From positions 3,906,001 to 3,970,000 of the forward strand of contig NC_009445.1 in assembly GCF_000026145.1 (NCBI RefSeq): a stretch of 64,000 bases of DNA, written 5' to 3'. The DNA is from Bradyrhizobium sp. ORS 278 (GTDB taxonomy: Bacteria > Pseudomonadota > Alphaproteobacteria > Rhizobiales > Xanthobacteraceae). A model generated the notes under the pieces. The model did not search any database and had not been told where the DNA came from. It saw only the letters and a list, made by a program, of their open reading frames with translations. Both the position numbers and the translations under genes were made by a program. This document shows, one piece after another, positions 51,994-60,076 of the stretch (the stretch's first letter is position 1; every line of letters begins with the position of its first letter).

Positions 51994-53190
51994 TCAGGCC
52001 ACGCAGCGCGCCGCGCCGGTCTTGGTCAGGATGCCATCCAGCATCTCGATCATCGCCGCGATCTCGTCGCGCGTGACGTTGAGCGCCGGCATGAAGCGCA
52101 GCGTATCCGGCCGGGGCGCGTTCAAGAGCAGGCCGAGTTCGAATGCATGCGCCACGATCGAGGGAGCGATCGGCCTGACGACGTCGAGCGCCAGCAGCAG
52201 GCCGTGACCGCGCACCTGGCCCAGGCCGTGCCGCGCCGACAAACGCTGCAGCTCGCTTTCCAGATAGAGGCCGTTGTCGGTCACGGCCTTGAGAAACTCC
52301 GGCTTGGCGACGATGTCGAGGATGGCGAGGCCGGCCGCACACATCAGCGGGTTGCCGTTGAAGGTGCCTCCCTGATCGCCATGCTCGAAGCAGGACGCCT
52401 CGCTGGTCGCGAGCAGGGCGGCGAGCGGGACGCCGCCGCCGATGCCCTTGCCGAGCGTCATGATGTCCGGAAGGACGTCGGCATGCTCATAGCCGAACAG
52501 CTTGCCGGTCCGGCCCATCCCGGTCTGGATCTCGTCGACGATCAGCAGCAGGCCGTGCCTGGTGGTGAGCGTCTGCAGCTGCTGCAGGAACTTGTCCGTC
52601 GCCGGCCACACGCCGGCTTCGCCCTGGATCGGCTCCAGCATGATCGCGACGGTGCTGTCGGAGACCAGCGCCTCGACCGAGGCGATATCGTTCAGGCGCG
52701 CCTTGGGGAAGCCCGGCACCTTCGGCTCGAACAGCGGCTCGAACGCCTTCTTGCCGGAGGCTGACATGGTGGCGAGCGTCCGGCCATGAAAGCCGCCCTC
52801 GAAGGTGATGATCTCATAGGCGCCGTTCTTGCGCAGCGCGCCGTACTTGCGCGCCAGCTTGATGGCGCCCTCATTGGCCTCCGCGCCCGAGTTCGCGAAG
52901 AACACCTGGTCGAAGCAGGAGCGCTCGGTGAGTGCTTTCGCCAGTTGCAGGCTGGTGTCGTTGAAACAGGCCGGGCTCGGTGTGATCAGCCGGGCCGCCT
53001 GGTCCGCGAGCGCCTTGGCTAGCTCGGGCGGGGCATGGCCGAGCGTATTTACCGCCCAGCCCTGGATGAAGTCGAGATAGCGCTTGCCGCCGTCGTCCCA
53101 CAGCCAGGAGCCCTTGCCCTGGACGAAGACGGTGCGCGGACGCGCCGTGATCTCCATCAGAGCGTCGTACGGATGCGAGGCGGTCAGCAT
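51994..53190 (-). CDS. argD: ArgD-like class III aminotransferase (acetylornithine/succinyl-DAP type)
   Basis: The ATG at 53190 has AGGAGA six bases upstream, giving 398 residues. The PLP enzyme shows class III motifs: [34 protein letters not shown], the Asp in [12 protein letters not shown], and the PLP Lys in TLGKGIGGG. Length and text fit acetylornithine aminotransferase (ArgD), which makes acetylornithine for arginine synthesis and can also act in lysine synthesis. It is not followed by argF, the usual partner. Its upstream region has a leader-peptide-like ORF, a promoter and a terminator hairpin, so attenuation is a candidate control. Another omega-type aminotransferase role cannot be excluded. 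Confidence 0.85.
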
Positions 53191-53224
53191 GGTCGGTCTC
53201 CTGTGCTCGAGGGGAAGGTGGGGG

Positions 53225-53268
53225 CGCAAAAGCGAGAAGGCCGCTCCTTTGCGGGAGCGGCCTTCTCG
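53225..53268 (-). terminator. Strong hairpin/attenuator candidate upstream of argD-like gene
   Basis: A perfect 15-bp inverted repeat (53233-53247 with 53254-53268) with a 6-base loop lies between the leader ORF and the aminotransferase start. On the minus strand it is followed by GCTTTTG. Reading on the plus strand it has no T-run, so it terminates minus-strand transcription, that is, transcripts heading into the aminotransferase gene. Confidence 0.75.
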
Positions 53269-53296
53269 AAAACCTGGAGCTGATGAGCTTAACTGA

Positions 53297-53389
53297 TCAG
53301 CAACGTCTTCGGACATGGCGCGCCCCGACATCGTCACGGCGGTGACGACGGCAAACGGCGGCGCGGCGGTTGGTCCGGTTGAAGATCAT
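53297..53389 (-). CDS. Arginine-rich 30-residue leader peptide candidate
   Basis: On the minus strand an ATG at 53389 opens a 30-residue frame ending in TGA, of which 11 residues are Arg. The frame starts [20 protein letters not shown] and its last codons before the final Cys are CGA AGA CGT, the first two being rare in this GC-rich genome. The predicted transcription start coincides with the ATG, so the message would be leaderless, as described for trpL of Sinorhizobium. It precedes a 15-bp terminator and a gene of arginine synthesis. Out-of-frame text in this genome is often Arg-rich, which lowers the weight of composition alone. Confidence 0.4.
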
Positions 53390-53395
53390 GTAGCG

Positions 53396-53425
53396 GCCAT
53401 ACAGGGAAACCGGGAGGGCTGTCAA
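53396..53425 (-). promoter_or_regulatory. Sigma-70-type promoter for the leader/argD-like unit
   Basis: On the minus strand TTGACA (53425-53420) and TATGGC (53401-53396) are 18 bases apart; shifted by one, GTATGG gives 17. The -10 is followed by six bases and then the ATG at 53389, so transcription should begin at or next to the start codon. Confidence 0.55.
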
Positions 53426-53615
53426 CATACGGCGTTGCCGGGATCGTGTGAGCGAGGCGGCCGAGCTCGCTCGTTGGGTGAGCACATCACATCCGGCTGG
53501 CGCAACAGCAACCGGGATAGTCCTGGCGTGCAACCCTTTAGTTCAATTTTTACCAAACATTTAGCGGCAGGATTTACCGTGCTGTCGGATCAAACCCTCC
53601 CGCTCAGGACGAGCG

Positions 53616-54743
53616 ATGCCAAACCCGCATCTTTCCATCGCCGATGAAGTCCAGGCGGCGATCGCCACCGGCTCAGCCGAACGCTGCTCCGGCGTGGCCG
53701 AGCGGGTGGCATCGCTGTTCATCGCATCCGCGGGCAACATGGACGTCGAGCAGCACGCTCTGTTCGCCGACGTGTTCGAACGTCTGGTCAACACGATCGA
53801 GCTGCGGGCTCTGGCGGACGTCGGTGCGCGGATCGCGCTCGCCGAGCTCAGCGCCCAGCTCGCGCCAGTGCCGCAGACGCCCGTCACCGTCATCCGGCGG
53901 CTCGCGCATCACGACGACATCGCCGTCGCCGGCCCGGTGCTCTCGGAGTCGCCGCGGCTCAGCAATGACGATCTGATCGAGATTGCCGGCAGTTGTGGCG
54001 AGAGGCACCTGATCGCGATCGCCGGGCGCTGGTGGCTTCAGGAGGTGGTGACCGACGCGCTGCTGGCCCGGCGCTTTCCGAGCGTCAGCCGCAAGCTGAT
54101 GAAGAACCCGGGCGCTCGCATTTCGGCGGCCGGCTTCTCCATCATCCTGGCGCAGGCGGCCGGCGATCCCGAGCTGGCCATTGCCACGGGCATTCGCGCC
54201 GATCTGCCGGCCGCGCTGCGCCGGGCCTTGTTGCAGGGCGCAAGCGAGGCGGTGAAAACGAGGCTGCTCGCCTCGGCGCCGCCACACCTCTACGAGGAGA
54301 TTCGTGGCGCGATCGCCTCGGCGACGGCGGATACGGACCGGGATATGTCGCGTTGCCGCGACTTCGGCGGGGCCAAGCTGACCATCGGGCAGCTGCGTCA
54401 GAGCGGCAAGCTCAACGAGGCCATGCTGTTCGATTTCGCGCGGCAGCGGCGCTACACGGAGACCATTGCGGCGATCGCGGAGCTGGCGAAATGCAGCATC
54501 GAGCTCGTGCGCCCGCTGATGCAGAGCCTGCGCAGCGATGGCATCCTCGTGCCCTGCAAGGCGGCAGGACTAAGTTGGACCACTGTCGCAGCAATCCTCG
54601 ACAGCCGTTTCGTTTCCGGCGCGACCAAACCGGACGAGCTGACGAAGCTGAAGGCCAAATATCTCGAGCTCACGCTCGACGAGGCGACACGGCTCATCAA
54701 GCTGTGGAACGTCAGAGCGGGCTCGTCGGCGAGCGGTGCATGA
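53616..54743 (+). CDS. DUF2336 domain protein
   Basis: The 375-residue protein is almost wholly helical with repeated Ala/Leu-rich segments (ADVFERLVNTIELRALADVGARIALAELSAQLAP, HDDIAVAGPVLSESPRLSNDDLIEIA). This HEAT-like pattern with the phrase VAGPVLSESPRLSNDDL is the mark of DUF2336 proteins of alphaproteobacteria. It has no signal peptide or membrane helix. Function is not established; a helical scaffold for protein binding is plausible. Its end lies eight bases from the stop of the convergent rimO gene. The 190 bases upstream (53426-53615) hold no gene. Confidence 0.85.
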   Translation: MPNPHLSIADEVQAAIATGSAERCSGVAERVASLFIASAGNMDVEQHALFADVFERLVNTIELRALADVGARIALAELSAQLAPVPQTPVTVIRRLAHHDDIAVAGPVLSESPRLSNDDLIEIAGSCGERHLIAIAGRWWLQEVVTDALLARRFPSVSRKLMKNPGARISAAGFSIILAQAAGDPELAIATGIRADLPAALRRALLQGASEAVKTRLLASAPPHLYEEIRGAIASATADTDRDMSRCRDFGGAKLTIGQLRQSGKLNEAMLFDFARQRRYTETIAAIAELAKCSIELVRPLMQSLRSDGILVPCKAAGLSWTTVAAILDSRFVSGATKPDELTKLKAKYLELTLDEATRLIKLWNVRAGSSASGA

Positions 54744-58285: not shown

Positions 58286-60076
58286 ATGAAAATCGAGCCG
58301 TTGTCTGTCGACTTCAACGACGAGCAGAAGCGCTATCTGGAAGGCTTGGCCGCCGGCCTGAAGGTCACGCTCGCCGGACGTGGCCAGTCTGCTGCTGCTG
58401 TCGCAACCGAGCCGACCGGGCCGGACGCCCTTCATATCAAAGCGCAGGACAAGCTGCTCGCGGCAGGCCGCAAGCTCGCCGACCAGGAAAAAATCAAGCG
58501 CGAGCTGCATCCGTTCGACGCCTATGAGCGGCTGAAGGCGCAGGCCCGCAGCAATGCCGCACCTTCGGCCGCCGACAATTTCCGCTGGCGCTATCACGGC
58601 CTGTTCCACGTCGCGCCGGCGCAGAACTCCTACATGTGCCGGCTGCGCATTCCCAACGGCATCATGAAGCATTGGCAGCTGTCCGGCCTCGCCGATCTCG
58701 CCGATCGGCTCTGCGGTCCTTACAGCCACGTCACGACGCGCGCCAATCTGCAGCTGCGCGAAATCCCGCCCAAGCATGCTGTGATGCTGCTTGAAGGCCT
58801 CTCCGATCTCGGCCTCACCGCGCGCGGCTCGGGCGCCGACAACATCCGCAACGTCACGGGCACTCCGACCGCCGGCATCGATCCGCAGGAGCTCTTGGAT
58901 ACACGGCTCTATGCGCGCGAGTGGCACTTCCACATCCTCAACGACCGCTCGCTCTACAGCCTGCCGCGCAAGTTCAACGTCGCCTTCGACGGCGCCGGCC
59001 GCATCGCTGCGCTCGAGGACACCAACGACATCGCGTTCTCCGCGGTCGAGGTGAAGGACGGCTTTGGCGTTGCGCCGGGCGTTTGGTTCAGGCTCGGCCT
59101 CGGTGGCATCACCGGCCATAAGGACTTTGCCAAACCGACTGGCATCATTGTCGAGCCGGACAAGGCGACCGAGGTCGCTGATGCCATCGTGCGGCTGTTC
59201 ATCGAGACCGGCGACCGCACCAATCGGCTGAAGGCCCGGCTGAAATACGTTCTCGACAGCATGGGCCATGACAAGTTCATGGAGGCCGTCGAGGCGAGGC
59301 TCGGCCGCACGCTCGCGCGTGTGCCGGACGAGGCGCTGAAGCCAAGGCCCGAGGCGGACCGCATGGCGCATATCGGCGTGCACCCTCAGAAACAGTCTGG
59401 GCTCAACTGGATCGGCGTCGTGCTGCCGCTGGGCAAGCTGACGAGCGATCAGATGCGCGCGCTCGCAAAGATCGCGGCCGATCTCGGTGACGGCGACATC
59501 CGGCTGACGGTCTGGCAGAACCTGCTGCTGTCCGGTGTGAGCGACGACAAAGTCAGCTTGGCCAGTGCGGCGATCGCGCAGATCGGGCTCGCCACGACAG
59601 CCTCGCACATCCGCGCCGGGCTGATCGCCTGCACGGGCAATGCCGGCTGCAAATTCGCCGCGGCCAACACCAAGAAGCACGCGGCCGAGATCGCCGACTG
59701 GTGCGAGGGCAGGGTGGGGATGGACACGCCGCTGAACATCCATCTCACCGGCTGCCATCACTCCTGCGCCCAGCACTACATCAGCGACATCGGCATGATC
59801 GCGGCCAAGGTGCCGGTCGGCGACGGCGATGACACGGTCGAGGGCTATCATCTGTTCGCCGGTGGCGGCTTCGGTCCGCAGGCCGATATCGGCCGCGAGG
59901 TGTATCGCGACCTCAAAGCTGAGGACGCGCCGGGTACCGTCGAGAAGCTGCTCAAGGCCTATCTCGCCCATCGCACTTCGCCGGAAGAGACCTTCTTGTC
60001 GTTTGCCCGCCGCCATGACGGCGACGCTCTTCGCAAGCTCGCCGAAGCCCAGACCTCGTCCGAGGTGTCAGCATGA
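58286..60076 (+). CDS. nirA: Ferredoxin-type nitrite (or sulfite) reductase, NirA family
   Basis: The ATG at 58286 gives 596 residues; an ATG at 58259 is also possible. The protein is a siroheme/4Fe-4S reductase of the NirA/CysI superfamily, which reduces nitrite to ammonia (or sulfite to sulfide) with six electrons. Cluster ligands are seen in ACTGNAGCKFA and TGCHHSCAQHYISDIG (CX5C and CX3C). The half-domains with GIDPQELLDT and NIRNVTGTP are typical. Gene context, with nasT-nasS upstream and a reductase overlapping by four bases, argues for assimilatory nitrite reduction. The substrate is an inference from context. Confidence 0.85.
   Translation: MKIEPLSVDFNDEQKRYLEGLAAGLKVTLAGRGQSAAAVATEPTGPDALHIKAQDKLLAAGRKLADQEKIKRELHPFDAYERLKAQARSNAAPSAADNFRWRYHGLFHVAPAQNSYMCRLRIPNGIMKHWQLSGLADLADRLCGPYSHVTTRANLQLREIPPKHAVMLLEGLSDLGLTARGSGADNIRNVTGTPTAGIDPQELLDTRLYAREWHFHILNDRSLYSLPRKFNVAFDGAGRIAALEDTNDIAFSAVEVKDGFGVAPGVWFRLGLGGITGHKDFAKPTGIIVEPDKATEVADAIVRLFIETGDRTNRLKARLKYVLDSMGHDKFMEAVEARLGRTLARVPDEALKPRPEADRMAHIGVHPQKQSGLNWIGVVLPLGKLTSDQMRALAKIAADLGDGDIRLTVWQNLLLSGVSDDKVSLASAAIAQIGLATTASHIRAGLIACTGNAGCKFAAANTKKHAAEIADWCEGRVGMDTPLNIHLTGCHHSCAQHYISDIGMIAAKVPVGDGDDTVEGYHLFAGGGFGPQADIGREVYRDLKAEDAPGTVEKLLKAYLAHRTSPEETFLSFARRHDGDALRKLAEAQTSSEVSA

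Follow-up and report, generated by a model that had tools for sequence, protein, structure and literature searches.

What is a short reading frame, in which more than a third of the codons specify arginine, doing directly ahead of a gene for arginine synthesis? In other words, is the DNA upstream of this argD-like gene a device that reads the cell's supply of arginine, and if so, which of its parts does the reading? We have tried to answer with the DNA itself: the window (the whole 64,000-nt stretch that was analysed), the same locus in relatives, and models of how its RNA might fold around a ribosome. Our answer, to which we give a probability of about 0.8, is that the locus controls a second argD by ribosome-mediated transcription attenuation, with charged tRNA-Arg as the signal that it senses.

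The leader, its gene and their surroundings

All of the parts lie on the minus strand, in an order that the initial annotation had described and that reads back at the same places: TTGACA (53425-53420), 18 nt, TATGGC (53401-53396), 6 nt and an ATG at 53389. The frame that opens there does contain 30 codons, 11 of them for Arg, and closes at 53297 with CGA AGA CGT TGC TGA, that is, with the three Arg codons reported just before the last Cys codon and the stop. Twenty-eight nt past that stop come the arms of the reported 15-bp stem (53268-53254 with 53247-53233), and then the ATG of the gene at 53190, whose ArgD-like character is borne out by its match to the NF002985/PRK03715 acetylornithine transaminase profile (668.7 bits, cut-off 568). 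The parts, including the pairing regions to which we return below, are as follows.

53420..53425, minus strand: -35 element TTGACA, read back and present in 67/67 fetched loci and 113/114 loci of a pattern scan; the other scan locus, L098, is truncated 24 nt upstream of its ATG
53396..53404, minus strand: -10-like element CTGTATGGC, read back and compared among loci
53297..53389, minus strand: Arg-rich leader ORF, putatively leaderless or nearly so
53373..53377, minus strand: CGGAC, 5' arm of the outer helix of the termination-competent fold, invariant in 66 sequences
53342..53350, minus strand: 5' arm of the in-frame hairpin, with Arg14-Arg15-His16 as the probable main control codons (codon conservation and fold)
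53329..53337, minus strand: 3' arm of the in-frame hairpin, 94.5% of its cells paired and two pairs changed on both sides
53317..53327, minus strand: region 2, the putative antiterminator 5' arm, within the ORF (pairing and stall modelling)
53310..53314, minus strand: GTCCG, 3' arm of the outer helix of the termination-competent fold, invariant in 66 sequences
53279..53301, minus strand: stop hairpin GCTGAT...ATCAGC enclosing the UGA stop, arms GCTGA/TCAGC invariant (one gap), loop length variable
53252..53262, minus strand: region 3, the putative antiterminator 3' arm, overlapping the terminator 5' arm (pairing computation)
53233..53268, minus strand: terminator hairpin, 15-bp stem, 6-nt loop, then CTTTT (read back, shuffles, alignment)
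51994..53190, minus strand: argD-like acetylornithine transaminase gene, 398 aa

Within the window, the leader is the sole case of TTGACA-N29-33-ATG, and none of 200 shuffles folds as well as the 200 nt of leader and terminator (z -5.3). The TGTA of the -10-like element is kept in at least 95% of 30 related loci and is not universal outside the genus. A simple consensus scanner, run from 52500 to 54000, returned no promoter-like and no terminator-like site, a result that we attribute to a poor -10 element and to a T tract that is only CTTTT. An Rfam search at the leader returned nothing above cut-off, and no described riboswitch or T-box family was matched. The tiny GCTGA/TCAGC hairpin (53296-53301 with 53279-53284) perhaps serves stop-codon pausing or ribosome release.

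Because the genome holds another argD-like gene elsewhere (G000:C1:7037446, 366.6 bits, with what by eye is argF after it), the gene behind the leader is a second argD. It appears to stand as a single-gene unit, with a convergent LLM-class gene downstream and, ahead of it (window 53616-54743, plus strand), a divergent gene that is weakly SpbR-like (76 bits, cut-off 400). For the canonical argD (L186), inspection of 420 nt by eye showed no Arg-rich leader. Near 7038700 (L186:3197-3219, minus strand) it has a promoter-like TTGACT-N17-TACAAT with a hairpin directly after it, made of GTGCCGCCTT...AAGGCGGCAC and ATTTTGTTTT and placed about 45 nt ahead of the start codon, and this may be a second, different 5' element that works without a leader ORF.

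Conservation and spread with argD

Could the frame be an accident of GC-rich DNA that happens to lie ahead of an ordinary terminator? The initial annotation had worried that chance frames in this genome are Arg-rich. That much is true, in that Arg averages 14.4% over the window's 174 frames of 25-34 codons that run from an ATG to a stop, but the leader's own Arg fraction is reached by no other frame in that set. What takes the probability of chance to nearly nil is conservation. A DNA search with the leader stretch through 60 relatives gave 30 loci (L001-L030), all 30 of them with TTGACA, an ATG 36 or 38 nt past the start of the -35 element and an Arg-rich frame of 28-30 codons. These loci were found by similarity to the leader stretch itself, so the fair count is the one made through the gene. 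Among 296 genomes of one family, 37 carry a PRK03715 argD over the cut-off (27/27 sampled from the genus, plus ten from six other genera), and all 37 have the leader before it, with TTGACA, an ATG 35-38 nt on, a frame of 27-30 codons and the hairpin. Two of the 37 (G000, G009) were already among the first 30, and two further genus members bring the total to 67 loci.

The attenuator interpretation had been staked on conservation of the Arg codons, the start codon and the hairpin in relatives. These are kept, together with the stop codon and the -35 element, in 66 of the 67 loci. The remaining locus, L035, comes from another genus and is strongly diverged (MQYASTNARRRRRARRFSAGAWDMRTR), and it retains the order of -35 element, ATG, Arg run and hairpin. 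The distance from the start of the -35 element to the ATG is 38 nt in 50/67 loci and 36 nt at the window locus; its full range is 35-38 nt in the 67 loci and 35-39 nt in 113 loci from the scan described next, which share species with them. Such spacing suggests a 5' UTR of 0-4 nt. Three of 36 same-genus genomes (G032, G033 and G035, one of which is only 80% complete) have neither a leader DNA match nor an argD over the cut-off; the two are absent jointly, and so they seem to be gained or lost together.

A scan of 84,980 species genomes for the conserved core pattern matched 114 stretches. Among the 80 named matches listed, most are Bradyrhizobium, and there are also metagenome-assembled genomes named Tardiphaga, Rhodoplanes, Hyphomicrobiales, Acetobacteraceae and others. 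In 113 of the 114, argD begins 93-133 nt past the leader stop and is 70-80% identical to the argD of the window, which again speaks against chance. (Presence of the leader is partly by construction both here and in L001-L030, which were chosen by leader pattern and by DNA similarity, respectively, and the scan loci overlap in species with the other genome samples, making the counts not independent.) The exception, L086 (L086:6662-6813), has an intact leader and neither terminator nor argD within 152 nt past the stop; an insertion, a rearrangement or an assembly join are all options for the sequence that follows.

Farther afield, the element thins out quickly. An RNA model that scores the leader itself at 146.6 bits found no credible second copy in its own genome. 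A 28.5-bit match (L183) proved on reading to be a terminator behind another gene, another match lay on the opposite strand of the leader terminator itself, and a further partial match reached 14.3 bits; within the window there was a 16.5-bit match at 59131-59250, with weaker ones besides. A class-wide search with the model (289 genomes, strict filters) matched 35 other genomes, none above 36 bits. We read 10 of the 29 new loci, which by eye resemble generic hairpins, and a script found frames with four or more Arg near L197 and L202, neither in the layout of the leader. In other classes of the phylum, none of 19 loci of the same gene family (18 of them over the cut-off) has an Arg-rich leader, taken here as a frame of 10-47 aa with at least 25% Arg and an RR, within 350 nt. 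As far as this distribution can tell, the leader seems to have arisen within the family examined and to travel with argD.

The open frame, its arginine codons and the competing folds

Conservation by itself does not say whether it is a peptide, a set of codons or an RNA that is being kept. We compared the leaders in two ways. Alignment A1 holds 66 of the 67 loci; L035 does not align and was therefore analysed alone. A codon test used 121 distinct leaders with long argD, taken from the 30 and the 114 loci, with a tree built from argD; L031-L067, for which only about 100 nt of argD had been fetched, stood outside it.

The frame stays open. Among 621 changes inferred in the 121 leaders, none makes an in-frame stop, against 10.6 +/- 3.1 expected (the leaders were chosen as open frames, and an internal stop was in no case a ground for rejection), and the two other frames acquire 23 and 29 stops (nulls 9.9 and 23.2). 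All 60 gaps inside the ORF in A1 are 3 nt long, and those past the stop are 1 to 8 nt long. Within this open frame, the 121 leaders show no purifying selection on the whole peptide (180 synonymous changes, 178.9 expected), and it is frame +1 that has a synonymous excess (186 against 159.2, P 0.0075). An open frame with drifting residues is the pattern that one expects if only control codons count; it is no proof of coding.

The arginines themselves are kept. They make up 38.4% of leader residues, compared with the 14.4% of chance frames in the window, and number 8-13 per leader. At nine positions, Arg conservation stands at 94% or higher, and the triplet Arg14-15-16 is present in 119/121 leaders, the window having His at position 16. 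Changes at the nine positions are synonymous in 21 cases and not in 15. At the seven best kept (5, 9, 14, 15, 16, 24 and 27, picked post hoc), 18 are synonymous and 4 are not, with 15 of the 18 at codon 14. If any Arg codon is counted, 26 of 64 changes keep Arg. Codon choice is also unusual: CGA and CGT account for 17.3% and 18.7% of leader Arg codons and for 3.1% and 4.6% of those in argD genes, which makes them about four to six times commoner in the leaders than in the gene downstream. The third positions of the conserved Arg codons are mostly fixed, and constraint on the RNA alone could thus explain part of their retention.

How much could the RNA explain? In the termination-competent fold, an outer helix (CGGAC/GUCCG) and an inner hairpin over the Arg triplet are followed by the UGA hairpin and the terminator, and across 63 distinct rows 98.4% of cells pair. 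Two-sided changes fill 16 cells compared with 2.2 in shuffles (0/500 as high), a count that comes from related sequences and so carries no probability. In L001 and L005, the change from Arg16 to His is accompanied by a compensating pair. The 15-bp stem of the terminator is near-invariant, with two covarying pairs, and the T tract is weak; termination is predicted from this anatomy.

One might take these helices to be the whole story, with a structured RNA (riboswitch-like or bound by a protein) that is translated weakly or not at all and whose CG-rich helices happen to spell Arg codons. The pairing and the two-sided changes just described are what such an RNA would show, as are the invariant third positions of several core Arg codons, the compensated Arg16 and the lack of an in-frame synonymous excess. 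An RNA with no use for its frame is harder to square with 621 changes that never put a stop in it while the other frames gain 23 and 29, with ORF gaps that come only in threes, with an ATG held 35-39 nt from the -35 element in 180 loci, with the failure of any Rfam family to match above cut-off and with L035, which retains its Arg codons without aligning. We consider a purely structural role quite improbable.

Ribosome-mediated attenuation requires a second pairing, one that competes with the terminator, and the helix that competes here joins region 2 (codons 21-25) to region 3, in the 5' arm of the terminator. In the window, CGGGGCG-c-GCC (53327-53317) pairs with GGCCGC-t-CCCG (53262-53252) over 10 bp at -18.0 kcal/mol, and the energy ranges from -9.6 to -18.8 kcal/mol across the alignment. 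The initial annotation had seen only a 6-bp antiterminator and called it the weak point of its proposal. Those 6 bp turn out to join the same two stretches in another register, and the longer helix eases the difficulty, although covariation by columns is not significant (118/500 shuffles as high). Six of the nine antiterminator pairs never vary. In each of the 63 distinct leaders, no stretch pairs better with region 3 than region 2 does, and the energy of that pairing lies at a mean z of -1.7 relative to shuffles. Swapping the arms between leaders makes pairing slightly worse (P = 0.033), and a region 2 of the window type pairs better with a G-type arm than with its own.

We then asked what a ribosome would do to these pairings by folding the transcript to the end of region 3 in the 63 distinct leaders and masking the ribosome footprint codon by codon. 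With the A site at the Arg triplet, which lies 17 to 15 codons ahead of the stop in most leaders, the model forms a mean of 8.1-8.7 of 9 antiterminator pairs if pairing across the ribosome is allowed and 8.6-8.8 if downstream sequence alone is counted. With the ribosome anywhere from nine codons before the stop through the stop itself, it forms 0-0.12 pairs, and with no ribosome at all, 3.4. When six footprint sizes were tried, a ribosome on the middle Arg codon left 8.1-8.7 pairs and one at the stop 0.0-0.9; at the stop, 0 to 6 of the 63 leaders exceeded 3 pairs. Stalls slightly upstream of the triplet also antiterminate in the model, and they do so at any codon, not only at Arg.

The attenuator proposed for this locus thus finds support in modelling, where a stall at the triplet favours the antiterminator and translation to the stop does not, and from the modelled stalls we infer that a shortage of arginine would open argD. 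The course of events would be the following. Transcription would start on the leader AUG or a few bases from it, and ribosomes would load on the RNA end. With arginine short, a ribosome would stall early in the frame, in its first half, at Arg codons 8-9 and, above all, 14-16, leaving region 2 free to pair with region 3, and RNA polymerase would continue into argD. With arginine ample, the ribosome would pass region 2 toward the UGA, region 2 would be masked or would refold with sequence upstream of it, and the terminator would form.

Two extensions of the model bear on whether sequence or codon placement is being kept. Under a wider metric, in which region 3 may pair with any leader base, synonymous recodings of ten leaders form a mean of 3.4-6.1 pairs at the triplet, and the natural sequences form 8.0-9.0 in nine of the ten. 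The tenth, L031 (L031:389-547), is a weaker switch, with 5.9 pairs and no advantage over its own recodings. By the same metric, only three of the ten leaders combine an antiterminator at the triplet with almost no pairs at the stop, where the rest hold 1.5-4.8 (4.8 in L013, 4.0 in L031). The diverged L035 forms 6.8-8.0 pairs with a stall anywhere up to codon 16, the end of its RRRRRARR run, and 2.3 or fewer from codon 17 on, which in modelling terms is the best sign that well-placed Arg codons, rather than one RNA sequence, are what is kept.

There remains the far end of the frame. A modelled stall at the late Arg codons (24, 27, 28 and 30) terminates, and the model therefore leaves their strong conservation unexplained. 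(In the window, these codons fall in 53297-53320, leader codons 24-30.) Certain arrest leaders, SpeFL with ornithine and the fungal AAP with arginine, are said to stall ribosomes at the stop. Might the C-terminal VRRxR act likewise and, when arginine or a related molecule is high, arrest the ribosome there, fixing the RNA fold? Columns 26-28 (V R R) and 30, beside the stop, are conserved at 94-100% in the 121 leaders without being needed for stalling at codons, and a ribosome held at the stop does terminate in the model. Yet the end is not kept in L035, where it reads WDMRTR, the last residue may be R, S or C, the peptide shows no overall selection, and the GUCCG helix arm with the stop hairpin can explain a conserved end without any arrest. 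We regard arrest by the nascent peptide as unlikely. Control by ribosomes that stall for want of arginine, as the initial annotation had interpreted the locus, we regard as a well-supported prediction, short of demonstration.

Known attenuators and the meaning of a probable arginine one

Ribosome-mediated attenuators of the trp, his and leu type control biosynthetic operons, and the argD leader has their general anatomy: a short ORF rich in codons for the product, a competing antiterminator and terminator, and the terminator before the structural gene. It departs from them in its use of arginine, in an antiterminator 5' arm that lies inside the ORF (codons 21-25) and in a stop enclosed by a conserved hairpin of its own. 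Leader peptides are well known to attenuate operons for Trp, His, Leu, Ile/Val, Phe and Thr, and bacterial arginine synthesis is usually under repressors or T-boxes; T-boxes are also named in PMC1262725.

The nearest relatives in how they act are the rhizobial leaderless trpL, the cysS leader of Rhodobacterales and Arg-sensing leaders with another mode of action (speF orf34, rbfL). In trpL of Sinorhizobium and Bradyrhizobium, the leader RNA has been shown to begin at the AUG (PMC7298713). The argD leader resembles it in its putative start at the AUG and in belonging to the same bacterial order, Bradyrhizobium having its own peTrpL, and differs in that trpL has Trp codons and 14-19 aa ahead of trpE (same source), whereas the argD leader has 27-30 aa and no sequence relation to it by eye. 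Products of that leaderless attenuator, rnTrpL and peTrpL, act in trans (PMC7298713), and one could therefore imagine that the argD leader is chiefly the source of a small RNA or an Arg-rich peptide that acts elsewhere, its control of argD being incidental. Its tight linkage to argD and the free drift of the variable peptide positions make this very improbable.

Other leaders share single traits with this one. The uORFC-8-2 leader of cysS in Rhodobacterales is likewise an alphaproteobacterial candidate found through conservation, with tandem control codons, but they are Cys codons, the gene is for a tRNA synthetase and the order is another (PMC8632094). In orf34 of Salmonella speF, a 34-codon leader, consecutive Arg codons pause the ribosome and sense low arginine; unlike the argD leader, it controls a polyamine gene, and does so by way of Rho, RNase G and the accessibility of the speF ribosome-binding site (PMC6386406). 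Leader Arg codons also sense arginine limitation in rbfL of S. aureus, which differs in blocking translation initiation of a biofilm regulator (PMC13009471), and P. aeruginosa carA has a leader peptide before a gene common to arginine and pyrimidine synthesis (PMC4997734).

Has anyone described this before? The initial annotation knew of no such arginine attenuator in rhizobia, and our full-text literature search, which covered main texts and few subscription papers, gave among the matches listed no Arg-codon attenuator of an arginine-biosynthesis gene. The accessible parts of the B. japonicum transcript papers (PMC4842269, PMC5082802) mention neither such an attenuator nor this leader, and the same is true of those of the S. 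meliloti papers (PMC10117765, PMC3616915), of an attenuator survey (PMC2965389), an RNA-motif survey (PMC8632094) and an actinobacterial survey (PMC1262725), and of the first part of a review (PMC12857756). From sequence and modelling, we file the locus as a ribosome-mediated amino-acid attenuator with arginine as a new specificity, its translation and its response to arginine being predicted. A bolder version, in which this is the first known attenuator of an arginine-biosynthesis gene through Arg codons and, in addition, the leaderless RNA released by termination and the free Arg-rich peptide work in trans on other genes, as those of rhizobial trpL do, strikes us as doubtful.

Were the prediction to hold, a large genus of nitrogen-fixing symbionts would possess a conserved arginine attenuator, which would extend the attenuation list by one amino acid, would explain how a duplicate argD can be held off until arginine is depleted and would supply a ready sensor of arginine supply, one that could be read in nodules.
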